Source: Antrihabitans stalactiti (GTDB lineage: Bacteria; Actinomycetota; Actinomycetes; Mycobacteriales; Mycobacteriaceae). Taken from it: a stretch of DNA of 64,000 bases. Both the position numbers and the translations under genes were made by a program. Each line of letters starts with the position of its first letter. Position 1 is the first letter of the stretch. Shown here in pieces: positions 23,877 through 45,835 of the stretch. The stretch lies in assembly GCF_012932915.1 (NCBI RefSeq), contig NZ_VCQU01000002.1:620001-684000 (forward strand), read 5' to 3'. Under the pieces are notes generated by a model. It was given only the letters and a program-made list of their open reading frames with translations. It did no database searches and had not been told where the DNA came from.

Positions 23877-24479
23877 ATGAGTACAGCTGAAGTGCGCAGC
23901 AGTGGCCCGCGACGTGTTGTGGTTGCCGAGGACGAGGCGTTGATCCGTATGGACCTCGTCGAGATGTTGTCGGAGGAGGGGTACGAGGTCGTCGGGGAGG
24001 CGGGCGACGGTCAGCAGGCTGTGGACCTGTCGATCGAGCACCGCCCGGATCTCGTGATCATGGATGTGAAGATGCCGCGCCGTGACGGCATCGATGCGGC
24101 GGCGGAGATTGCGACGAAGCGGATCGCGCCGGTCGTGATTTTGACCGCGTTCAGCCAGCGTGACCTGGTGGAACGGGCCCGCGACGCGGGTGCGATGGCG
24201 TATTTGGTGAAGCCGTTCTCCAAGTCGGATCTGGTTCCTGCGATCGAGCTGGCGGCGAGCCGGTTCTCGGAGATTTCGGCGCTCGAAAAAGAGGTGGCCG
24301 GTCTCAACGACCGTCTGGAGACGCGCAAGTTGGTCGAACGGGCCAAGGGCGTGCTGATGAAGACGCAGGGGCTGTCGGAGCCGCAGGCGTTCAAGTGGAT
24401 CCAGCGGACCGCAATGGACCGCCGGACGACGATGAAGGCCGTCGCCCAAGTTGTGATCGACAACCTCAAGAGCGAGTAA
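23877..24479 (+). CDS. pdtaR: ANTAR-type response regulator PdtaR (200 aa)
   Basis: Receiver domain (about 10-125) with acidic pocket AEDEA, phospho-acceptor Asp near 63 (VIMDVKMPRRDG), Thr in ILTAF and Lys in VKPFS. A short helix leads to an ANTAR RNA-binding domain (about 140-195: RKLVERAKGVLMKT, AFKWIQRTAMDRRTT). In mycobacteria the homologue (Rv1626) is phosphorylated by PdtaS and binds RNA to control antitermination. ATG 23877 follows AAGGA. The kinase PdtaS is not in this window, as is usual. It is divergent from the tRNA gene and upstream of the liv operon. Confidence 0.93.
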   Translation: MSTAEVRSSGPRRVVVAEDEALIRMDLVEMLSEEGYEVVGEAGDGQQAVDLSIEHRPDLVIMDVKMPRRDGIDAAAEIATKRIAPVVILTAFSQRDLVERARDAGAMAYLVKPFSKSDLVPAIELAASRFSEISALEKEVAGLNDRLETRKLVERAKGVLMKTQGLSEPQAFKWIQRTAMDRRTTMKAVAQVVIDNLKSE

Positions 24480-24630
24480 AACCGGCTGCGCAGCACTACA
24501 TCGACGCGAATGTGACGAAATCGCACCCAATGTGATGCATCGGTAACGCGACGAGGTTATGTTCTCTCCGGGCTGGCGCAGTCGGCCCTCCGGTCAACAG
24601 CCGGAGAGCAATGAACTCGGAGGTGAAAAC

Positions 24631-25857
24631 GTGCATCGTCGTGCAGCGAGGGGCGCGTTAATCGTTGGAGTCGCGGCCACGCTCGTCTTGGCCGGCTGTG
24701 GCGACAAGAAGACCGACAGCAAGTCGAGCAGCGAATCGGGGTCGGAGACTTCAACTGGGCTCAGCATCCAGCCGGAGCTGCAGGTCGACCTCGAAGGTAA
24801 GGAAGTTCCGGCGACGAACGCATCGTCGGCAGCGAACCCTGCCGGCGACGGCACGGCGAAGTGCGATCCAGTGTCCATCGCCATGGCTGGCGCGCTGACA
24901 GGTGAGGATGCCGCACTCGGCATCAACATCATCGACGGCGTGAAGCTCGCGCTCGATCAGCACAACAAGGCCAATCCGGGCTGCCAGGTGGAGCTGAAGA
25001 AGTTCGACACCGAAGGCAACCCGGAGAAGGCCACCCAGGTCATCCCGAACGTTATCAACGACAAGTCGGTCATCGGCCTCGTCGGCCCCGCCTTCTCGGG
25101 TGAGACGAAGGCAACCGGCCAGACGCTGAGCGACGCCGGCCTCGTGTCGGTGACGTCGTCTGCGACGAACGCCAAGCTGACCCAGAACGGGTGGAAGACC
25201 TTCTTCCGCGGCCTTGCCAACGACGACATCCAGGGTCCGGCTGTTGCCAAGTACCTGACCGGCACGCTCGGCTACAACAAGGTGTGCGTGGTTCAGGACA
25301 ACACCGACTACGGCACCGGTCTGGCGAAGGCCGTGACCGAGGCGCTCGGCTCCGCAGCCGATGAGAACTGTGCGGCGAGCATCAAGAAGGGTGACAAGGA
25401 CTTCAACGCCACGGTCACCAAGCTGAAGAGCGCGAACGCGCAGGCCATCTTCTACTCGGGCTACTACGCCGAGGCCGCCGCGCTTGCCGCGTCGCTCAAG
25501 AAGAACGGCGTCAACGCGGTGTTCGTCTCCGCTGACGGCTCGAACGACCCGGAATTCGTCAAGCAAGCAGGCAGCGCGTCCAAGGACGCAATCCTGTCGT
25601 GCCCCTGCGGTCCGGCACCGGATAAGTTCAAGGCCGAGTACAAGGCTTTGAACGGTCAGGACCCGGGTGTTTACTCGGTCGAGGCGTACGACTTGACGAC
25701 CATTCTGCTCAAGGGAATCGACTCGGGTAAGGTCACCCGCGCCGACCTCCTCGAGTTTGTTCGGTCCTATGACGGCCCGGGCCTGGCCCGTCAGTACAAG
25801 TGGAACGAGAACGGCGAGCTTTCCACGGCACTGATCTGGGTCTACAAGGTCAAGTAA
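24631..25857 (+). CDS. livK: LivK-type branched-chain amino-acid binding lipoprotein (408 aa)
   Basis: GTG 24631 follows GGAGG and gives a lipoprotein signal ending ATLVLAGC. A type-1 periplasmic-binding fold (Peripla_BP_6) starts at CDPVSIAMAGALTGEDAA; ligand-loop motifs include GPAFSG and VTSSATNAKLT. It would capture branched-chain or similar amino acids outside the membrane for LivHM. It heads the operon livK-H-M-G-F-kinase. A strong hairpin after its stop probably gives more LivK than permease. Its whole mature sequence is paralogous to the sensor domain of the kinase at 29951. The exact ligand is not determinable. Confidence 0.92.
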   Translation: MHRRAARGALIVGVAATLVLAGCGDKKTDSKSSSESGSETSTGLSIQPELQVDLEGKEVPATNASSAANPAGDGTAKCDPVSIAMAGALTGEDAALGINIIDGVKLALDQHNKANPGCQVELKKFDTEGNPEKATQVIPNVINDKSVIGLVGPAFSGETKATGQTLSDAGLVSVTSSATNAKLTQNGWKTFFRGLANDDIQGPAVAKYLTGTLGYNKVCVVQDNTDYGTGLAKAVTEALGSAADENCAASIKKGDKDFNATVTKLKSANAQAIFYSGYYAEAAALAASLKKNGVNAVFVSADGSNDPEFVKQAGSASKDAILSCPCGPAPDKFKAEYKALNGQDPGVYSVEAYDLTTILLKGIDSGKVTRADLLEFVRSYDGPGLARQYKWNENGELSTALIWVYKVK

Positions 25858-25937: not shown

Positions 25938-26960
25938 ATGACCGCAACCACCGACATCTTGGCCGCCTCGATCGATTTCAACTTCTCAGGGGTCGCGGAC
26001 AACTTCTGGCAGCTGACGATCGACGGCTTGGCGTACGGCTCGATCTACGCGCTGGTGGCGGTCGGATACACGCTGGTCTACGGCGTGCTGCGCTTGATCA
26101 ACTTCGCACACTCCGAAATCTTCATGCTCGGAATGTTCGGCCAATACGTCGGTCTGGAGCTGCTCGGCTTCGCCCCGGCCGGTGACGCGTACAGCGTCGG
26201 CGTCTTCCTGACGGTCTTGTATCTGGGTTTGGCGGTGCTGATCGGTATGGCCGTGGCCGGCGGAGCCGCCGTGGGCCTCGAGCGAATCGCGTACCGACCG
26301 TTGCGCAAGCGTGGCGCAAAGCCACTGATCTTCTTGATCACCGCGATCGGTATGTCGTTCATCATCCAAGAATTCGTGCACTTCGTGCTCCCGAAGATCA
26401 AACCCGGCCTCGGCGGATCGACCGCCCAGCAACCGATTTCTTTGGTCGAGCAGAAGGATCAGTTCTCGATCTTCTCCGGCGTCGTCAACAACATCACGAT
26501 CATCATCATCGTGTCCGCGCTGGTCCTGGCCTTTGCGACCGAAGTGCTGATCAACCGCACGAAGTTCGGTCGTGGCATTCGCGCTGTCGCGCAGGACCCG
26601 AACACCGCCACACTCATGGGTGTATCGCGCGAACGAATCATCATGCTGACGTTCCTGATCGGCGGCGTTCTGGCCGGCGCGGCAGCACTGCTCTACACGA
26701 TCAACTTGCCGTCGGCGATCATCTACTCCGGCGGCTTCATTCTCGGCATCAAAGCCTTCAGCGCGGCGGTTCTCGGGGGAATCGGAAACTTGCGCGGCGC
26801 GCTCCTCGGTGGCCTGTTGCTGGGGCTGATCGAGAACTACGGTCAGATCTTCTTCGGTTCGCAGTGGCGCGATGTCATCGCATTCGTGCTGCTGGTCCTC
26901 GTTCTGATGATCCGCCCCACCGGCATTCTGGGTGAAAGTCTCGGAAAGGCACGCGTGTGA
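25938..26960 (+). CDS. livH: LivH branched-chain amino-acid permease (340 aa)
   Basis: Multi-spanning permease of the LivH family with the hallmark GSIYALVAVGYTLVYGVLRL near the first helices and NFAHSEIFMLG, GIRAVAQDPNTATLMGV and FSAAVLGGIGNLRGA motifs. It forms the membrane channel with LivM. N-terminus about 30 residues longer than usual. The ribosome site before ATG 25938 is weak. It overlaps livM by 4 bases. Confidence 0.93.
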   Translation: MTATTDILAASIDFNFSGVADNFWQLTIDGLAYGSIYALVAVGYTLVYGVLRLINFAHSEIFMLGMFGQYVGLELLGFAPAGDAYSVGVFLTVLYLGLAVLIGMAVAGGAAVGLERIAYRPLRKRGAKPLIFLITAIGMSFIIQEFVHFVLPKIKPGLGGSTAQQPISLVEQKDQFSIFSGVVNNITIIIIVSALVLAFATEVLINRTKFGRGIRAVAQDPNTATLMGVSRERIIMLTFLIGGVLAGAAALLYTINLPSAIIYSGGFILGIKAFSAAVLGGIGNLRGALLGGLLLGLIENYGQIFFGSQWRDVIAFVLLVLVLMIRPTGILGESLGKARV

Positions 26961-28225
26961 CCAACCTGACCAAGGGAGCAACCCCGCCGTCGGAGCCCCC
27001 GCCGCCTGCGGTGCCACCGACGCCCGCGGTGCCGCCAGTCCCACCGCCGGTGCCGCGACGCGGCGTGGGCGACTCGGTCCGTACGTGGTGGGACGGGCTG
27101 TCCCGGCCGGCCCAGTGGGCGTTCGGCGCTGTCGTCGTCGTATTGATCGCGATCGTCCCGGTGTATCCACCGCCGTTCCTCGATACGCCGAGCACGTCGT
27201 TCTCGGCTGTGATGGCGCAGTTCGCGATGATCGCGTTGCTGGCAATCGGCCTCAACGTCGTCGTCGGGCAGACCGGATTGCTCGATCTCGGTTATGTCGG
27301 CTTCTACGCCGTCGGCGCGTACACGGTCGCAATCCTGACCAGCCCGGACAGTCCGTGGAACCAGACGGGACCGGACGGATTCTTGAGTTCCGGCTGGGCG
27401 TGGTTGGCGTGCTTGCCGTTGGCGGTTGCGATCACCGCAGTGTCGGGTCTGATTCTCGGGACGCCGACCCTGCGCTTGCGTGGTGACTACCTGGCCATCG
27501 TGACCCTCGGGTTCGGTGAAATCGTGCGACTGCTCGCCGACAACCTGCCCGAAATCACGAACGGCAGCCTCGGCCTGAACCGCGTCGAATATCCGCATAT
27601 CGGCGAGTCGGCGTCGGATCCACAAGGCGTGTTCTTCAAGGGCAACATCTACGACCGGCTCAACGTCGGCGTGTGGTGGTTCTGGTTCGGTCTCGTGATG
27701 ATCGTCATCGTCCTGCTGCTCGTCGGAAACCTCGAGCGCAGCCGGGTCGGCCGCTCCTGGGTCGCCATTCGTGAAGACGAGGACGTCGCCGAGATCATGG
27801 GTGTGCCGACCTTCAAATTCAAGCTCTGGGCGTTCACGATCGGCGCGGCGATCGGTGGCTTGTCGGGTGCCATGTACGCCGGTCAGGTGCAGTTCGTCAC
27901 CCCGACGAACTTCAACATCATCAACTCGATGCTGTTCATCTGCGCTGTCGTGCTCGGCGGCCAGGGCAACAAGCTCGGCGTGATCGTCGGCGCGTTCATC
28001 ATCGTGTATCTCCCGAACCGCTTGCTGTCGGTGGAGGTCGGCGGGCAGTCGCTGGGCGAATACAAGTACCTCTTCTTCGGCCTGGCTTTGGTCGCGCTGA
28101 TGATCTTCCGGCCGCAGGGTCTGTTCCCCGCGCGCCAGAAACTGCTCGCGTACGGCAGGCAGATCTATCAAGCGGTCCGCCGCCCAGTCGCCAAGCCCGA
28201 AGACGCGATCGGAGCGTCGAAATGA
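26957..28225 (+). CDS. livM: LivM branched-chain amino-acid permease (422 aa)
   Basis: GTG start overlaps the livH stop (GTGA). A cytoplasmic Pro-rich N-terminus of about 45 residues precedes roughly ten membrane helices. Family motifs include [29 protein letters not shown]-like [30 protein letters not shown] and ALREDE-type [14 protein letters not shown]. Partner of LivH. Confidence 0.93.
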
Positions 28226-29175
28226 CGAACCCAGGCGACGCGCTGTTCGGCAACGAGGACATGGCTGCGAAGTCCGCGCCGGAAGTACCCGTCGAGGAAG
28301 CCGGAATTGTCGACGTCTCGGCGATCGATCCAGCTCTGGCGGATCCGGACGCGGTTGCCGACGTTGTGGCACCGACTCGCACCATCGAGACTGCAGTCGG
28401 CGACGCGCTCATGCGAACCGAGGACCTGACCGTCAAGTTCGGTGGCCTCACCGCGCTCGACGCCGTCAGCTTCGAAATTCGCCGCGGCGAAATTCTCGGT
28501 CTGATCGGTCCGAACGGTGCGGGTAAGACGACGTGCTTCAACGCGATCACCGGCGTCTACCGGCCGTCCTCAGGGACTGTCTTCTTCGACGGGAAGCCGT
28601 TGACCAAGACGAAGCGCAATGCGATCACCCGGCTCGGGATCGCGCGGACCTTCCAGAACATTCGCTTGTTCAACGAGATGACCGCGCTGGAGAATGTCGT
28701 CGTCGGCACGGACGCTCGGCACAAGACCTCGGTGCCCGGCGCGATCTTCCGGACCCCGCGCCACCGCCGCGAGGAGCACGACGCGGTCGAGCGTGGCATG
28801 GCGTTGCTGGAGTTCGTCGGCATCGCTCCCCGCGCGGTCGAGAAGGCGAAGAACCTCTCCTACGGCGACCAGCGCCGGCTCGAGATCGCACGCGCGCTCG
28901 CGACCGAGCCGAAGCTGCTGTGCTTGGACGAACCCGCTGCAGGGTTCAACCCGAGCGAGAAGGCCGCATTGATGGACCTGATTCGCAAGATCCGTGACGA
29001 CGGTTTCACGGTGCTGCTGATCGAACACGACATGCGGCTGGTCATGGGAGTGACCGACCGTATCGTGGTTTTGGAGTTCGGCAGAAAGATCGCCGACGGA
29101 CTGCCGGCCGAGATTCGCGAAGATCCGGCCGTAATCGCTGCTTACTTAGGGGTGCCAGACGATGTCACGGCATAG
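28222..29175 (+). CDS. livG: LivG ATP-binding protein (317 aa)
   Basis: ABC ATPase of the LivG family: Walker A GPNGAGKT, signature [15 protein letters not shown], Walker [12 protein letters not shown] and switch HDM. An acidic N-terminal extension of about 60 residues (rich in Asp/Ala/Pro/Val) before [12 protein letters not shown] is unusual; a shorter start at the ATG near 28411 is conceivable, but the ATGA overlap with livM supports 28222. Confidence 0.92.
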
Positions 29176-29935
29176 AAAACCGGATACCGACGAATTTCCG
29201 GTCGTGCAATCCGGAGCGCCGATGCTCGAAGCAATCGACCTCGTCGTCAATTACGGCAGAATTCAAGCACTTCACGGGATTTCGCTGCAGGTTCAAGCCG
29301 GTGAGCTGGTCACGCTGCTCGGTGCCAACGGTGCGGGCAAGACGACCACGATGCGCGCGCTGTCCGGCTTGCTGCCGCTGACGCGCGGCAAGATCATGTT
29401 CGACGGTCGCGACATCACGCACATGAAGGCCCACGATCGCGTCAAAGCCGGCATGATCCAGGCTCCTGAAGGGCGTGGCATTTTCCCCGGCATGACCGTG
29501 CAGGAAAACCTCGACATGGGTTGCTATGCGCGCAAGTTCGAGTCGAAGGCCAAGTACAACGAGACGTTGGAGTGGATCTTCGAGCTGTTCCCGCGGCTGC
29601 TCGAGCGTCGCACCCAGGTCGGTGGCACGTTGTCCGGCGGCGAGCAGCAGATGGTTGCCATCGGCCGGTCGCTGATGGCGCGCCCGAAGCTCCTGCTGCT
29701 CGACGAACCGTCGATGGGCTTGGCGCCCATGATCATCCAGCAGATCTTCCGCATCATCGCCGAGATCAACGCGCTGGGAACGACGATTCTGTTGGTCGAG
29801 CAGAACGCTCAACAGGCGCTCACTCGCACCCACCGCGCGTACATACTGGAAACCGGCGAGGTCACCAAGGACGGGACCGGTAAGGACCTGCTCGCGGATC
29901 CGGCCATCAAGGCGGCGTACCTCGGCGTCGGTTAG
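29162..29935 (+). CDS. livF: LivF ATP-binding protein (257 aa)
   Basis: Second ABC ATPase of the importer: Walker A GANGAGKT, VPEGRGIF-type APEGRGIFPGMTV, signature LSGGEQQMVAIGRSL, Walker B LLLLDEPSMGL. Start ATG 29162 overlaps livG by 14 bases; ATG 29222 (MLEAIDLVVNYG) is the family-length alternative. The kinase/binding-protein fusion gene follows after 15 bases. Confidence 0.92.
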   Translation: MSRHRKPDTDEFPVVQSGAPMLEAIDLVVNYGRIQALHGISLQVQAGELVTLLGANGAGKTTTMRALSGLLPLTRGKIMFDGRDITHMKAHDRVKAGMIQAPEGRGIFPGMTVQENLDMGCYARKFESKAKYNETLEWIFELFPRLLERRTQVGGTLSGGEQQMVAIGRSLMARPKLLLLDEPSMGLAPMIIQQIFRIIAEINALGTTILLVEQNAQQALTRTHRAYILETGEVTKDGTGKDLLADPAIKAAYLGVG

Positions 29936-29950
29936 CTGAAGGGGGAGCGG

Positions 29951-32071
29951 TTGCCGTTCGAGCCAGGCACGACGTTCGCGGGCTACGTGATCGAGCGCGC
30001 CATCGGCGCGGGCGGCATGGGGACCGTCTACGTCGCCCATCAGTCGCAGTTGCAGCGTCGCGTGGCGCTCAAGCTGCTCAACGAGCAGCTGTCCGCCGAC
30101 ACAGATTTCCGTCGCCGATTCACCCAGGAAGCGATTCTGGCTGCGCGGCTTTCGCACCCGAATATCGTGTCGATCCACGATCAGGGGCAGGCGCAGGGCC
30201 AGCTCTGGATCGCGATGCAATACGTCGACGGGACGGACGCCGCTGGTGCGCTTCGTGCGGCGCGCGGTCAGCTCGACCCGAGCCGCGCAGTGGGGATCAT
30301 CGAGCAGATCGGTTCCGCGTTGGACTACGCGCACCGGGCCGGACTGGTTCACCGTGACGTCAAACCGGCCAACATGTTGCTGGCGCACGATGATTCAGAA
30401 CGCGCACTGCTGACCGACTTCGGGATCGCGAAGGCGGCAGACCTCGCCGGGCTGACGCAGACGGGCGGCGTCGTCGCGACGTTTGCGTATGCGTCGCCCG
30501 AGCAGATCGACGGGCGGCCGGTCGACGGTCGATCCGATCAATATTCGCTGGCCTGCAGCGCTTTCGAACTGCTGACGGGTGCGCGACCGTTCGTCGGCGA
30601 CAGTGCCGCGTCGGTGATGTTTGCCCACATGCACAAGCCGCCGCCATCGGCGAACGCGCTGGCGCCGCATCTGCCTCCTGCCGTGAACGACGTGTTGGCG
30701 CGGGCGATGGCGAAGAATCCCGCCCAGCGATTTGCGACGTGCGCCGAGTTTGCGTCGGCATTGCGCCAGGCGATCACGGCACCGGCCCGGACCGCTGTCG
30801 ACTATCAGACATACGAGCCGACTGTCGTTGCCTCCCGACCACTGATCGTCCCGCACCGCTCGCGACGCCGTCCGCTGCTGGTGGGTGCAGTAATTGCTGT
30901 CGTTGTCGCGCTCACTGCCGGCCTGGCCGTGTGGAAGTGGCCGAGCGACAAGGGCGGCGGCGACACTCGCGCTGACGGATTCCCGATCGCCCAGAACACT
31001 GCCGCCCACTTCCTGATCGACAAAGACGGCAAGACGGTCGAGCGAACGGCCACGCACGCGGTCGATCCCGCCGGTGACGGCCGGGCAGAGTGCAGCGGCC
31101 TCTCGATTGCTGTCGGGGTATCCGTGGTGTCGACCGATGGCGCGGGCTCGATCAGTGACGGCGTTTTCAATGGCACGAGCCTGGCCGTCCGCGCGCACAA
31201 TGCCGCGAACCCCGGCTGCCAGGTCGGGCTCCAGAATGTCGATATCGCAGGTGCAGGCGGACTTCCGGTCGCGTCCGGCGCCGTCACGTTGATTTCCGCA
31301 GACACGTCGATCATCGGACTCGTCGGCCCGGTGTTTTCCACGGTCGCCGAGCAGGTCGGGGGCCAATTCGACAGCGCCGGTTTGCCGTTCGTCACACCGT
31401 CGGCAAGTCGGCCGGGTTTGACTGCATCGCATTGGGATTCGTTCTTTCAAGCGACAACCAACGACCCCGCGCAGGTACCTGCGATGGCGGGCTATCTGAA
31501 GAACGTTCGCCGCGTCGCAAAGGTGTGCGTCGCGAGTGATGGATCCGATGTCGGCAACAACCAGTTGCGGGTAATGAACGAGCGGTTGGGCGCGGTCGCG
31601 GATACGAGTTGCTCCGGTTCGGGCGCGACCGTCGAGAACATCAAGAGGTCGGCGCCGGATGCCGTGTATTTCGGCGGTTACACCGAGCCTGCGAAGACGC
31701 TGTGGCGACAGCTCGACGTCGCGGGGGTGCGGTCGCTGTTCACGGCGAGCGACGGCGTCTATACAAAAGATTTCGACGGCGACTTCACGCCAGGTCCGGC
31801 GGTCGTGACGTGCGGGTGCGGACCGGGTTCGCAGGATTTCACAGCTGCGTATGCCAAGGAGTTTCGGTCGCAGCCGCCGTTGTGGGCGGTCGAGGCCTAC
31901 GACGTCGCCACGATCATGCTGACCGGCATCGATTCGGGCGCACACGACCGCGCGGCACTGACCAAATTCCTGCGCAACTACTCCGGACCAGGCATTGTGC
32001 GCGACTACCGCTGGACCGGTCCGGGTGAGCTCGCGGAGCAGAACGTGTGGGCTTACGCCGTCGGGAAGTGA
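29951..32071 (+). CDS. Transmembrane Ser/Thr kinase fused to a LivK-type ligand-binding sensor (706 aa)
   Basis: TTG start behind GGGGGAG. Residues 1-275 are an intact Hanks-type kinase: glycine loop GAGGMG (19-24), catalytic Lys 41 in VALKLL, HRDVKPAN (134-141), DFG (156-158) and ASPEQ. It is an RD kinase. A juxtamembrane linker leads to one helix (about 308-328). The extracellular part (about 370-706) is a type-1 binding-protein domain aligning along its length with the LivK of the same operon. Shared features are PAGDG before the first strand, ANPGCQV, IIGLVGP-FS, the S-A-x-x-x-LT ligand loop, EAYD, and the end GELxxxxxWxY. It probably phosphorylates cytoplasmic targets when the amino acid is bound. 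NCBI uses a bifunctional name for such proteins, but I know of no functional study. Confidence 0.93.
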   Translation: MPFEPGTTFAGYVIERAIGAGGMGTVYVAHQSQLQRRVALKLLNEQLSADTDFRRRFTQEAILAARLSHPNIVSIHDQGQAQGQLWIAMQYVDGTDAAGALRAARGQLDPSRAVGIIEQIGSALDYAHRAGLVHRDVKPANMLLAHDDSERALLTDFGIAKAADLAGLTQTGGVVATFAYASPEQIDGRPVDGRSDQYSLACSAFELLTGARPFVGDSAASVMFAHMHKPPPSANALAPHLPPAVNDVLARAMAKNPAQRFATCAEFASALRQAITAPARTAVDYQTYEPTVVASRPLIVPHRSRRRPLLVGAVIAVVVALTAGLAVWKWPSDKGGGDTRADGFPIAQNTAAHFLIDKDGKTVERTATHAVDPAGDGRAECSGLSIAVGVSVVSTDGAGSISDGVFNGTSLAVRAHNAANPGCQVGLQNVDIAGAGGLPVASGAVTLISADTSIIGLVGPVFSTVAEQVGGQFDSAGLPFVTPSASRPGLTASHWDSFFQATTNDPAQVPAMAGYLKNVRRVAKVCVASDGSDVGNNQLRVMNERLGAVADTSCSGSGATVENIKRSAPDAVYFGGYTEPAKTLWRQLDVAGVRSLFTASDGVYTKDFDGDFTPGPAVVTCGCGPGSQDFTAAYAKEFRSQPPLWAVEAYDVATIMLTGIDSGAHDRAALTKFLRNYSGPGIVRDYRWTGPGELAEQNVWAYAVGK

Positions 32072-32114: not shown

Positions 32115-34847
32115 GTGAGCCCCGCAACCGTTCAACGGTCCTTACCGACATCCGCTGAAGAAACGCCGAAAAAGCCGGTGTTAATGCTGCTCGACGGGCA
32201 TTCGCTGGCATTCCGGGCGTTCTTCGCGTTGCCTGCGGAAAACTTCAAGACGGTCAGTGGGCAGACGACGAATGCGGTCTACGGGTTCACCGCGATGCTG
32301 ATCAACATTCTTCGTGACGAGGGGCCGACGCACATCGCCGCAGCGTTCGACGTGTCTCGCCAGACGTTCCGCGCGGAGGCGTTTCCCGAGTACAAGGCAA
32401 ACCGGAGCAGGCCGCCGGACGAGTTCAAGGGGCAGGTCGAGCTCACCAAGGATGTGTTGGGCGCCTTGGGTATTCCGGTGATGGCGCAGGCGGGCGTCGA
32501 GGCCGACGACATCATCGCGACGCTCACCACCCAGGCGGTCCCGCTGGGGTTCAAGGTGCTGATCGTGACAGGTGACCGCGATGCGATTCAGCTGGTCAAC
32601 GACGACGTGACGGTTCTCTATCCCAAGCGCGGCGTCTCGGAGATGACGCGGTTCACTCCCGAAGAGGTCGAGGCGAAATATGGCCTGACGCCGAAGCAGT
32701 ACCCAGATTTTGCAGCGCTGCGCGGCGACCCGAGCGATAACCTCCCCGGCATTCCCGGGGTTGGGGAGAAGACCGCCGCGAAGTGGATCAGGGAGTTCGG
32801 CGACCTGAATGCGCTCGTCGATCGCGTCGATGAGGTTCGCGGCAAGGTCGGCGATGCGCTGCGGGCGAACTTGTCCAGCGTGGTGATGAACCGGCAGCTC
32901 ACAGAATTGCTCAAGACGGTCCAGCTGCCGTACACGCCCGACCAGCTCGAGCACGGTCCATGGGATCGCGACAAGATTCACCAGCTCTTCGACGATCTCG
33001 AGTTCCGGGTACTCCGCGATCGGTTGTTCGAGACTTTGGCGTCCGCAGAACCCGAAGCCGAAGAAGGCTTCGAGATCAGCGGTGGCGCAATTCCGGCCGG
33101 CGAGGTAGGCGCGTGGCTTGCGGCGCACGCGTCGGGCGGCGTGCGGCACGGGATTTCGATCGTCGGAACGACGACGCCGTATGGCGGCGATGTCAAAGCA
33201 ATCGCCATTGCCGCGGGCGACGGCGAGGGCGGATATATCGAGACGACGGCACTCACCCCTGCCGACGAGAAAGCTCTAGGGGAGTGGCTCGCCAACCCGG
33301 CCGAGCCGAAGGTCATCCACGAGGCGAAGGCCGCGATGCACGCGCTGCGCGGTCGCGGGTGGGAGCTCGGCGGGCTGACGAGTGACACCGCACTCGCGGC
33401 TTATCTGGTTCGGCCCGGGCAACGCAGTTTCTTCCTCGACGACCTCTCGTTGCGCTATCTGAAGCGCGAACTTCGGGTGGAAAAGTCTGACCAGGGCCAA
33501 CTTTCGCTGCTCGACGACGAAGAGCAACTCGGTGCCGACACTGCCGAAGCCGAGATCCTGCGTGCCCAGGCGGTGGCCGATCTTGCGACCGCGTTCGACG
33601 AAGAGTTGGAGCGCATCGAGTCGACGGCACTGCTCACCGAGATGGAGCTGCCGCTGCTCACGGTGCTGGCGGATCTCGAGACCGCAGGCATCGCGATCGA
33701 CACCGATCACCTCAACGACCTGCACAGCCGCTTCTCCGAAGAGGTGAACCGCGCAGCGAACGAGGCGTACGAGGTGATCGGCGAGCAGATCAACCTCGGC
33801 TCGCCCAAGCAATTGCAGGTCGTGCTGTTCGAGAAGCTCGACATGCCGAAGACGAAGCGCACCAAGACGGGTTACACCACCGACGCCGATGCGCTGGAAG
33901 GGCTGTTCGAGAAGACGCAGCACCCGTTCCTCGAGCATCTGCTTGCTCACCGCGATGCGACGCGGCTCAAGGTCACTGTCGAGGGGTTGCTGAAGGCAGT
34001 CTCCGACGACGGCCGGATCCACACCACGTTCAACCAGACGATCGCCGCGACCGGGCGGTTGTCGTCGGTCGAGCCGAACCTGCAGAACATCCCGATCCGG
34101 ACCGACACAGGCCGGCAGATTCGGGACGCGTTCGTTGTCGGCGAGGGCTACGACACGCTGATGACCGCCGACTACAGCCAGATCGAGATGCGGATCATGG
34201 CGCACCTCTCCAAGGACGAGGGACTGATCGAAGCCTTCAACACCGGCGAGGATCTGCACAGTTTCGTTGCGTCGAAGGCGTTCGGTTTGCCCATCGACGC
34301 GGTCACGCCTGAGCTGCGGCGTCGAGTGAAGGCGATGTCCTACGGGCTCGCGTACGGCTTGAGTGCATATGGCCTCTCGGTGCAGCTCAAGATCAGCACC
34401 GAAGAGGCGAAAGAGCAGATGGACGTGTACTTCGCACGGTTCGGCGGGGTGCGCGATTACCTGCGTGAGGCCGTCGAAGTAGCCCGCAAGGTCGGCTACA
34501 CGCAGACGCTGTTCGGTCGTCGGCGCTACCTGCCAGACCTCGATAGCAGCAATCGTCAACGCCGTGAGGTTGCCGAGCGCGCAGCGCTCAACGCACCGAT
34601 TCAGGGCACGGCGGCCGACATCATCAAAGTCGCGATGATCAACGTGCAGAAGGCGCTGGCCGCGGAGAAGTTGAAATCGCGAATGTTGTTGCAGATCCAC
34701 GACGAATTGCTGTTCGAGGTCGTCGACTCCGAGCGCGAGCAGGTCGAGAAGTTGGTGCGCGAGAACATGGCATCGGCCATCGAACTGTCCGTGCCCCTGG
34801 ATGTGTCGGTCGGCACTGGTCGTAGTTGGGACGCGGCAGCGCACTAG
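32115..34847 (+). CDS. polA: DNA polymerase I (910 aa)
   Basis: The N-terminal 5'-3' nuclease (about 25-320) starts LMLLDGHSLAFRAFFAL and has the helix-hairpin-helix GIPGVGEKTAAKW. The middle (about 330-510) corresponds to the proofreading fold, which is degenerate in actinobacteria. The polymerase domain (about 530-910) has motif A TADYSQIEMRI, O-helix RRVKAMSYGLAYG and motif C QIHDELLFE. It fills gaps and removes RNA primers in repair and lagging-strand synthesis. A bidirectional-looking terminator follows at 34853. Confidence 0.95.
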   Translation: MSPATVQRSLPTSAEETPKKPVLMLLDGHSLAFRAFFALPAENFKTVSGQTTNAVYGFTAMLINILRDEGPTHIAAAFDVSRQTFRAEAFPEYKANRSRPPDEFKGQVELTKDVLGALGIPVMAQAGVEADDIIATLTTQAVPLGFKVLIVTGDRDAIQLVNDDVTVLYPKRGVSEMTRFTPEEVEAKYGLTPKQYPDFAALRGDPSDNLPGIPGVGEKTAAKWIREFGDLNALVDRVDEVRGKVGDALRANLSSVVMNRQLTELLKTVQLPYTPDQLEHGPWDRDKIHQLFDDLEFRVLRDRLFETLASAEPEAEEGFEISGGAIPAGEVGAWLAAHASGGVRHGISIVGTTTPYGGDVKAIAIAAGDGEGGYIETTALTPADEKALGEWLANPAEPKVIHEAKAAMHALRGRGWELGGLTSDTALAAYLVRPGQRSFFLDDLSLRYLKRELRVEKSDQGQLSLLDDEEQLGADTAEAEILRAQAVADLATAFDEELERIESTALLTEMELPLLTVLADLETAGIAIDTDHLNDLHSRFSEEVNRAANEAYEVIGEQINLGSPKQLQVVLFEKLDMPKTKRTKTGYTTDADALEGLFEKTQHPFLEHLLAHRDATRLKVTVEGLLKAVSDDGRIHTTFNQTIAATGRLSSVEPNLQNIPIRTDTGRQIRDAFVVGEGYDTLMTADYSQIEMRIMAHLSKDEGLIEAFNTGEDLHSFVASKAFGLPIDAVTPELRRRVKAMSYGLAYGLSAYGLSVQLKISTEEAKEQMDVYFARFGGVRDYLREAVEVARKVGYTQTLFGRRRYLPDLDSSNRQRREVAERAALNAPIQGTAADIIKVAMINVQKALAAEKLKSRMLLQIHDELLFEVVDSEREQVEKLVRENMASAIELSVPLDVSVGTGRSWDAAAH

Positions 34848-43622: not shown

Positions 43623-44411
43623 CTAGCCCAGCGGGTTCAACACCCGATCGAGGAATCGAATGGTCCGCTCGTTCTGTGGGTTGCCGATCACGTCGTCCGG
43701 CGGGCCGGTTTCGACGACCAGTCCGCCATCGGTGAACAACACCTGGTCGGCAACCTGGCGCGCGAACTGCAGTTCGTGCGTGACGACGACCAAGGTCCAG
43801 CCGCTGGAGGCGAGGTCTTTGATCACCTTCAGCACCTCACCGACGAGCTCCGGATCCAGCGCCGAGGTTGGCTCGTCGAACAGAATCAGCTTGGGGCGCA
43901 ACGCAAGTGCCCGCGCGATCCCGACCCGCTGCTGCTGACCGCCCGACAATTGGCTCGGATAGGCATTCTCTTTGTGCCCCAGGCCGACTCGCTCCAGCAG
44001 TTCCCGGGCCTCGGCGTAGACCTCGTTTTTCGGCCGCTTCTGAACGACGATCGGACCTTCGACAAGGTTCTCGATCGCAGTCTTGTGCGGGAACAGGTTG
44101 TGCGACTGGAAGACGAACGCACTCTGCGCTCGATACGCCTTCAGCACCGCCTTGGTCGGTTTCGTGCTGAAGTCGATTTCGACGTCGCCGACCCGGACCA
44201 CGCCGCCGTCCGGCGCATCGAGGGCGTTGAGTGCGCGCAGCAAGGTCGTCTTGCCGGAGCCGGACGGTCCGATGATCGTCGTCACGGACCCACGCGGCAC
44301 CCGAATATCGATGCCGCGCAACACCTTGTTGTCACCGAACGACTTGGTGATGCCGGTGGCCTCGATGAGCGGCCGGGCGTCGGACTTCGTGACGTGCTCG
44401 TTGCTGGTCAT
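43623..44411 (-). CDS. Amino-acid ABC transporter ATPase (262 aa)
   Basis: GlnQ/TcyN-type ATPase with Walker A GPSGSGKTT, signature [17 protein letters not shown], Walker [15 protein letters not shown] and switch VVTHELQFARQ. It energises the fused binding protein/permease encoded just upstream, with which it overlaps by 4 bases. Confidence 0.92.
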   Translation of the reverse strand: MTSNEHVTKSDARPLIEATGITKSFGDNKVLRGIDIRVPRGSVTTIIGPSGSGKTTLLRALNALDAPDGGVVRVGDVEIDFSTKPTKAVLKAYRAQSAFVFQSHNLFPHKTAIENLVEGPIVVQKRPKNEVYAEARELLERVGLGHKENAYPSQLSGGQQQRVGIARALALRPKLILFDEPTSALDPELVGEVLKVIKDLASSGWTLVVVTHELQFARQVADQVLFTDGGLVVETGPPDDVIGNPQNERTIRFLDRVLNPLG

Positions 44412-45835
44412 TTCGCGATGTACCTATCCAGTCGATGTTCGAGCTTGCCCTGGCCGAAGGACAACACCAAGCAGATCACCCAGTAGTAGAGCGCCGCGGT
44501 GCCGTAGAGCGCGAAGAATTCGAAGCTCGGCGCGGCCGCGATCTGCGCGGTCCGCAGGATTTCGGTGACGAGGATCGTCGATGCCAGCGACGTGTCCTTG
44601 ACCAATGAGATGAGCGTGTTGGACAGCGGTGGCACCGCGGTCCGTAGCGCTTGCGGAAGGATGATGCGCCGCAACGAGGTTCGGTAATCCATGCCGATCG
44701 TCTCGGCGGCCTCCCATTGCCCGCGCGGGATGCTGAGAATCGCCGCGCGGATGATCTCTGCCGCGTAACCGCCGACGTTCAAGGAAAACGCGATGACCGC
44801 GGCTGGGAACGGATCGATCGTGATTCCGGCCTGGGGGAGTGCGAAGAAGATGATGAAGAGCTGGACCAGCAGCGGCGTGCCACGAATCAATGAGATGTAG
44901 ACCCGGGCGAGCCAGGACAGTGGCTTGATCGGCGACAACCGCGCCAACGCCACAGCCAGCGCAATCACCAGTCCGAGGACGAAGCTGATGGCAGTCAGCG
45001 GGATCGTGCCCTTCAGGGCCGACTTCGCCAGTGGCCACAGGGTGTCTTTGACCAGTTGGAGTGTGCTTCGCGTCTGCTTCGGCTCGGGATTGAAGTACTT
45101 GTCGCCGATCTCTTCGAGGGTGCCGTCGGCGCGAATGTCCTCCAGGCCCTTGTTGATGTCGGCGGTGAGCGGGCTGTTCTTGCGCAGTGCAAACGCCTGA
45201 GAGCTCTGCTCACCTACGACGCCGACGGTCTTCAACCCGCTGTCCGGGTGCTGGGCAAGGTAATTCAGCACGGCGAGGTTGTCGTTGATGATGAAGTCGA
45301 TCCGGCCGTCTTTCAGGATCTGGACCGCTTCGGTGAAACCGTCGACGTCCTCGACCTTTGCGCCTGCCCCACGGGCGGAATCGGCCCAGTTGGAGGTTGA
45401 CGTCTGGCCCGCGGTCTTTCCGCTCAGATCTGCGACGCCTTTGATGCGGTCGTCGTCGGCGCGGACGACGATCACGCCGTCGGTCTGCACATAGACATCG
45501 GTGAGGTCGTAGCGAGCCTTGCGCTCGTCGTTGACCGACACCTGATTCGCGACGACGTCGAATCGATCGGTCTCGAGGTTCTGGAAGATCGAGCGCCACG
45601 GGCTCTCGACGAATTCAACGCGCCTGCCGAGCTTCTCGGCAATCGCTTTGATGACGTCGACGTCGTAACCGGTGAGGTCGCCGGTCTCGGGATCGTGGTA
45701 GCTGAACGGCGCGTACGTCCCCTCGGTCCCTACGCGCAGCACGTTCGAATCGGAATCGTCCGGACCGCCGCACCCGCTCAGCAATGCCGTGCCCAGGAGG
45801 ATCGCAAGGACCGCTGATACGTGGAACCTTCGCAT
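44408..45835 (-). CDS. Fused amino-acid binding lipoprotein and permease (475 aa)
   Basis: Signal peptide with lipobox LLSGC. Residues about 30-255 are an SBP family 3 domain (VLRVGTEGTYAPFSYHDPET, GYDVDVIKAIAEKLGR). Residues about 265-475 are a HisM-type permease with LARVYISLIRGTPLLVQLF and a GGYAAEIIRAAILSIPRGQW EAA loop. Binding protein and channel are thus tethered, one per permease subunit. With the ATPase at 43623 it forms a complete two-gene importer, probably for cystine or a polar amino acid. Confidence 0.9.
   Translation of the reverse strand: MRRFHVSAVLAILLGTALLSGCGGPDDSDSNVLRVGTEGTYAPFSYHDPETGDLTGYDVDVIKAIAEKLGRRVEFVESPWRSIFQNLETDRFDVVANQVSVNDERKARYDLTDVYVQTDGVIVVRADDDRIKGVADLSGKTAGQTSTSNWADSARGAGAKVEDVDGFTEAVQILKDGRIDFIINDNLAVLNYLAQHPDSGLKTVGVVGEQSSQAFALRKNSPLTADINKGLEDIRADGTLEEIGDKYFNPEPKQTRSTLQLVKDTLWPLAKSALKGTIPLTAISFVLGLVIALAVALARLSPIKPLSWLARVYISLIRGTPLLVQLFIIFFALPQAGITIDPFPAAVIAFSLNVGGYAAEIIRAAILSIPRGQWEAAETIGMDYRTSLRRIILPQALRTAVPPLSNTLISLVKDTSLASTILVTEILRTAQIAAAPSFEFFALYGTAALYYWVICLVLSFGQGKLEHRLDRYIAK

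Follow-up and report, generated by a model that had tools for sequence, protein, structure and literature searches.

In a 64,000-nucleotide stretch of the Antrihabitans stalactiti genome (the window in what follows; family Nocardiaceae, genome size 6.76 Mb) we found, directly behind the genes of a Liv importer, a kinase gene whose product is probably a receptor Ser/Thr kinase with one membrane pass, produced jointly with that importer, and whose flytrap domain most likely reads an amino acid or amino-acid analogue other than, or wider in range than, the ligand of LivK. The receptor-kinase part of this reading is supported by intact kinase motifs, by a sensor model of LIVBP fold whose best structural relative holds leucine, and by an intact orthologue at the same site in A. 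stalagmiti. The amino-acid part is weakened by the loss of a pocket tyrosine (Tyr150 of the leucine-binding protein), by the replacement of the first ligand loop and by a change of Tyr202 to Asp in the A. stalagmiti sensor; the link to the importer is weakened by the absence of the kinase from 67 of 68 named liv loci and from two of the four genomes of the genus.

The kinase gene (29951..32071, + strand) starts with TTG and encodes 706 aa without an internal stop; upstream of the TTG the frame stays open for just five more codons. The TTG lies 15 bases past the livF stop, and a probable ribosome-binding site, AGGGGGAG (29940..29947, +), is located between the two. By its sequence the protein is a Hanks-type kinase. 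Residues 12-262 (29984..30736, +) matched Pfam PF00069 (4e-43), and by motif reading the glycine loop, the catalytic lysine K41, HRD (134-136), DFG (156-158) and SPEQ (182-185) are all intact. One strong hydrophobic segment was found in the hydropathy profile (19-residue windows starting at residues 306-314, peak 2.76 at 309) and was assigned to a single membrane helix at residues 309-328 (30875..30934, +), while two weaker hydrophobic windows, at 440 and 444, fall within the sensor domain. The basic stretch RSRRR precedes the helix, which would put the positive side inside and the sensor outside the cytoplasm. LivK carries the lipobox LAGC, whereas the WKWPSDKG that follows the helix in the kinase protein contains no cysteine, and the kinase sensor therefore does not resemble LivK as a secreted lipoprotein. 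The extracytoplasmic LivK-type sensor was placed at residues 352-706 (31004..32068, +), based on a Peripla_BP_6 match, a structure model and Foldseek. Scanned alone, this part reached 57.9 bits for Peripla_BP_6 against a cut-off of 31.7 (57.0 bits in the genome search); the Pfam scan of the whole protein gave for it ANF_receptor alone, below threshold (23.1 of 25.4 bits), and no Peripla_BP_6. The layout of an intact Hanks-type kinase, one membrane helix and a binding-protein domain, as proposed in the preliminary description, was thus borne out. A PASTA kinase or another named kinase subfamily was ruled out, since NCBIfam cut-offs were not reached (311.4 of 450 bits for the PASTA-kinase model NF033483); PASTA repeats gave no Pfam match in the window kinase.

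The window protein fits a fusion type, with a kinase and Peripla_BP_6 in one protein, that carries the RefSeq name 'bifunctional serine/threonine-protein kinase/ABC transporter substrate-binding protein' and is found in Streptomyces (e.g. WP_331752712.1, WP_331752709.1, WP_112443064.1). Because these Streptomyces proteins carry the same two domains, the type itself is not new. A literature search with narrow terms, most subscription journals being uncovered, returned no paper on an architecture of kinase plus LivK-type sensor. S. coelicolor SCO3821 was ruled out as a described example, a PASTA motif being reported for it in PMC9600765. The five Streptomyces-type proteins scanned share the N-terminal kinase and the C-terminal Peripla_BP_6 domain with the window protein, but Streptomyces-type fusions often come as adjacent pairs, form clades of their own for both sensors and kinases, lack the PAGDG and GELxxxxxWxY motifs (0/7 ORFs) and lay outside liv operons in the six loci examined. 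Compared with them, the window protein is unusual in its place inside an importer operon and in its altered binding pocket.

A draw of 101 genomes from the Streptomyces-type genus (g122) gave 71 fusion matches with E no higher than 1e-120, spread over 33 genomes, 25 of which had at least two. Adjacent pairs (L135, L170, L171, L130, L131) were seen on large plasmids, those of S. chartreusis, S. anthocyanicus and S. cadmiisoli, as well as in Streptomyces-type genomes, and the paired proteins may act as heterodimers. At one of these loci (L130, 5950-8349) the upstream pair member lacks the first half of its kinase domain, by a frameshift or a sequencing error. In another genome (G754; L174, 4865-14582) the fusion has a liv-type importer about 2.6 kb away on the opposite strand, with one large ORF between them. 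This importer, with matches to LivF, LivG, LivH and LivM followed by a Peripla_BP_6 protein, was seen at one of the six Streptomyces-type loci examined and speaks to some extent for a broader connection between such fusions and liv genes. A binding-protein fusion of another kind was noticed elsewhere in the window, where a 475-aa ORF (44408-45835, -) joins a family-3 binding protein to an importer permease (SBP_bac_3, BPD_transp_1) and adjoins an ABC ATPase ORF (43623-44411).

The importer genes all lie on the + strand and comprise livK for a lipoprotein-type binding protein at the operon head (24559..25857), the permease genes livH (25938..26960) and livM (26957..28225), and the ATPase genes livG (28222..29175) and livF (29162..29935). 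An ANTAR response regulator gene is encoded upstream of livK (23877..24479, +), assigned by Pfam and synteny, and polA (32115..34847, +; Pfam, GTG start inferred) is the next gene downstream of the kinase. The block of ANTAR regulator, livKHMGF and polA recurs across the Nocardiaceae, Gordoniaceae and Mycobacteriaceae loci surveyed. No terminator-like site was found between livF and the kinase gene, nor between the kinase gene and polA, in a scan of little power, since it picked up 10 sites in the region where shuffled sequence gave 8.3 on average. As had been proposed from the 15-base spacing, the kinase is probably co-transcribed with the Liv importer. Within the block, the window LivK is nearest to the LivKs of Aldersonia (75-79%) and of the genus member G002 (74%), while those of A. 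stalagmiti and A. cavernicola share only 59-63% identity with it and cluster with LivKs of Rhodococcus (loci L172, L173, L025, L055). No such split is seen for the ANTAR regulator, LivG or PolA, and an exchange of livK within the operon may explain it. Two tandem livK genes ahead of livH were observed in some actinobacterial loci (L027, L033, L034, L046, L090).

The full-length kinase protein was detected at E 1e-180 or better in two of the four Antrihabitans genomes, that of the window and that of A. stalagmiti. The A. stalagmiti orthologue is intact, 53% identical, and sits between livF and polA, 39 bases after livF. A. cavernicola and G002, the other two of the genus, gave no kinase match even at E 1e-110, and there polA directly follows livF. 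Between the two kinase-bearing species the sensor is 45% identical, against 63% for the kinase domain and LivK, 88% for LivG and 85% for PolA, and the A. stalagmiti sensor alone reaches no Pfam cut-off. A. stalagmiti also carries a further kinase gene, which lies upstream of the ANTAR regulator gene in its liv block (L025, 5608-6477). Outside the window, a kinase at most 2.5 kb after livF on the same strand was found in one of 68 named liv loci, again A. stalagmiti; the 68 are those with more than 2.5 kb of sequence after livF among 80 loci, taken from the top 80 of 228 matches. The proposed survey of liv-kinase adjacency therefore showed it to be real in two species, but rare. In draws of genomes that overlap with each other, at a strict E-value that would miss distant fusions (1e-110 or better), matches came from four of 401 genomes of the family (the window's own, A. 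stalagmiti, G320 and G330), and from the window's own genome as the sole match in the order (1/397) and class (1/394) draws.

G320 and G330 belong to another genus of the same family and have genomes of 8-9 Mb. Their LivK-sensor kinases have the same layout as the window protein and their sensors group with its sensor in trees, but the kinase domains are of another lineage and the first pocket loop is largely kept. Searches by tblastn and of ORFs found no liv genes within 16-18 kb of these kinases beyond the sensors themselves. This absence, like the presence of the kinase in just two of four Antrihabitans genomes and one of 68 named loci, would fit a chance neighbourhood, in which the kinase gene landed between livF and polA and shares nothing with the importer except transcription. 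Against this, the gene occupies the same site in the same orientation, closely behind livF (15 and 39 bases), in two species although their kinases are just 53% identical, and the sensor comes from the LivK family and not from another receptor type. We regard such a coincidence as possible though somewhat unlikely.

The sensor has the sequence and, according to its predicted structure, the fold of the LivK family. An AlphaFold2 model built with 55 rows gave an LIVBP fold with a pLDDT of 89.6 and a pTM of 0.89, and the top Foldseek matches were LIVBP-type binding proteins, the best being 4n0q with bound leucine (1.2e-20); class C receptor domains followed from 2.6e-13. The structure prediction that had been suggested as a check thus agreed with a binding-protein sensor. 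Pocket positions were numbered by sequence alignment to the leucine-binding protein (LBP) 1usg, with 53 LivKs and the two kinase sensors of Antrihabitans aligned. A literature search on the LBP pocket residues found nothing, and the ligand contacts named here are those we take these residues to make in 1usg. Ser463 (31337..31339, +) is equivalent to LBP Ser79 and is kept, with serine at this position in both Antrihabitans sensors and in all 53 LivKs. Asp601 (31751..31753, +) is equivalent to LBP Glu226, a position occupied by aspartate in both Antrihabitans kinases and, again, in 53/53 LivKs. Tyr577 (31679..31681, +), the equivalent of LBP Tyr202, is shared by the window sensor with every LivK of the 53 and is Asp in A. 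stalagmiti. The ligand loop Ser484-Ala485-Ser486 (31400..31408, +) corresponds to LBP 100-102, where the Thr102 position is Thr in 53/53 LivKs and Ser in both Antrihabitans kinases. At Val534 (31550..31552, +) the tyrosine equivalent to LBP Tyr150, present in 48 of the 53 LivKs, is lost; A. stalagmiti has Leu there. Two residues past the LBP 276 position, a tyrosine found in all 53 LivKs is Trp in both Antrihabitans kinases. The first ligand loop is also changed, the LivK motif LTGxxAALG being replaced in the Antrihabitans sensors, and the window protein has two inserted residues there. The region of this loop scored low in the sensor model (59 for block 41-50 and 62 for block 81-90), whereas all blocks of the LivK model reached at least 86.

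The pocket is therefore half kept as judged from the alignment, in that the residues expected to hold the amino-acid backbone persist, with one Thr-to-Ser change, while the side-chain part is remodelled. Retention of the pocket, which the preliminary description claimed for the ligand-loop serines, holds for most of the backbone-holding residues and fails at the Thr102-type position (Ser), the Tyr150-type position (Val) and the first loop. The altered side-chain pocket and the further change in A. stalagmiti weaken the proposal that the sensor binds branched-chain amino acids, and a changed ligand appears likelier. Since the backbone-holding residues are mostly kept and the side-chain pocket is remodelled, the ligand is most likely other or wider than that of LivK.

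The same observations bear on whether the sensor binds a small ligand at all, as it might instead report transporter occupancy or protein contacts (e.g. by docking LivHM or LivK) or merely drive pairing of the kinase. The replaced first loop, the loss of the Tyr150-type residue and the fast divergence of the two Antrihabitans sensors would agree with such a role, as would the loss of seven LivK-conserved columns (at least 94% identical) in all five LivK-sensor kinases compared, two of these columns being LivK K276 and F282 in KKGDKDF. However, the window protein still has the residues that anchor the backbone, and it keeps 70 of the 114 columns with at least 94% identity across the 53 LivKs (63 in A. 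stalagmiti; 81, 81 and 88 in three G320/G330 sensors). We consider a sensor without a small ligand quite unlikely. The six LivK cysteines are also kept in the sensor.

The sensor descends, on the evidence of sequence comparison, from the actinobacterial LivK family. BLASTP aligned the window protein to the LivK of its own operon (24559-25857) with 35% identity over 425 aa (E 7e-73), a likeness that is not due to chance, and the claimed alignment with this LivK is therefore confirmed. The motifs quoted in its favour are present in both proteins, but across the 53 LivKs and the two kinase sensors most proved common to the whole actinobacterial LivK family. Against the 53 LivKs the window sensor showed identities of 35.9 to 42.6%; these values are biased upward, since the LivKs, apart from the window's own, were chosen among the top 80 of 228 matches in a search made with kinase sensors. 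The own-operon LivK ranked 44th with 38.5%, and in A. stalagmiti the own-operon LivK was also at rank 44 (36.5%). The sensor trees paired the Antrihabitans sensors with no Antrihabitans LivK, joining them instead with the G320/G330 sensors, a grouping that was not strongly supported either in the 74-row tree (74/93) or in the 81-row tree (89/99), in which five outgroup rows were mistranslated (L106, L107, L124, L128, L129). The 74-row tree leaves out these five and two other binding proteins of the window's own genome; ten further rows from the phylum were left out of the sensor trees for stops, contig-end cuts or short length. In AU tests a clade of the two Antrihabitans sensors with the window's own LivK cost 7.7 log units and was not rejected (p 0.097). 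Three other constrained groupings were not rejected either: the Antrihabitans sensors with the LivKs of A. stalagmiti and A. cavernicola (p 0.117), all kinase sensors together (p 0.119), and the Antrihabitans sensors with those of Streptomyces type (p 0.233). It is thus improbable in our view that the sensor arose by duplication of the LivK of its own operon, as the preliminary description had it, and responds to the same branched-chain amino acids as that LivK, given the low rank in both species, the tree placement with kinase sensors of another genus and the differing side-chain pocket, even though the 35% identity, the kept pocket Ser, Tyr and Asp and the unrejected joint clade speak for it; a recent duplication in particular is unsupported.

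The kinase domains gave a different picture. In a tree of 38 rows, which leaves out the upstream pair member of L130 (half of its kinase domain is missing; its sensor stays in the sensor trees), a single clade of Antrihabitans and G320/G330 kinases was rejected (AU p 0.00044), and a clade of Antrihabitans with Streptomyces-type kinases was not (p 0.105). The first of these tests speaks against a single origin of all fusions. The clash between sensor and kinase trees could reflect repeated fusion, exchange of domains or long-branch attraction of fast-evolving sensors. One tentative and fairly unlikely scenario is that LivK-type flytraps joined Hanks kinases repeatedly in Actinomycetota, and that the Antrihabitans receptor was built into the importer operon. 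Uptake and sensing of one nutrient class would then be produced as a unit, their pockets having drifted to different amino acids.

For a single-pass receptor made with the importer, the most likely mode of action, by analogy, is that of a ligand-paired receptor kinase. The flytrap would close outside the cell on a small amino-acid-like ligand, and closure would alter the pairing of two receptors, which would allow trans-autophosphorylation of the kinase and, once it is activated, phosphorylation of cytoplasmic proteins. In PASTA kinases, peptidoglycan binding at the outer domain induces dimerization (PMC6213207). These kinases (PknB, PrkC) share with the window protein a Hanks kinase, one membrane helix and an extracellular ligand domain, but their ligand domain is unrelated to the window sensor. 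An amino-acid binding protein also governs a Ser/Thr kinase in Corynebacterium and Mycobacterium; in C. glutamicum GlnH, which binds Asp and Glu, controls PknG via the membrane protein GlnX (PMC9769921). Unlike the window protein, the GlnH-GlnX-PknG system consists of three separate proteins.

Two further points of comparison concern the receptors themselves. An LIVBP-type flytrap has likewise been recruited as a receptor domain in the class C GPCRs (mGluR, CaSR, GABA-B), whose ligand domains sit on animal seven-helix receptors and not on kinases; PknG, for its part, is not a single-pass receptor. Many bacterial receptor kinases lack a known ligand. A kinase with a sensor from a family with solved amino-acid complexes, encoded beside a matching importer, offers a short list of candidate ligands, and the Antrihabitans protein would parallel, in bacteria, the way in which the class C receptors of animals acquired their ligand domain.
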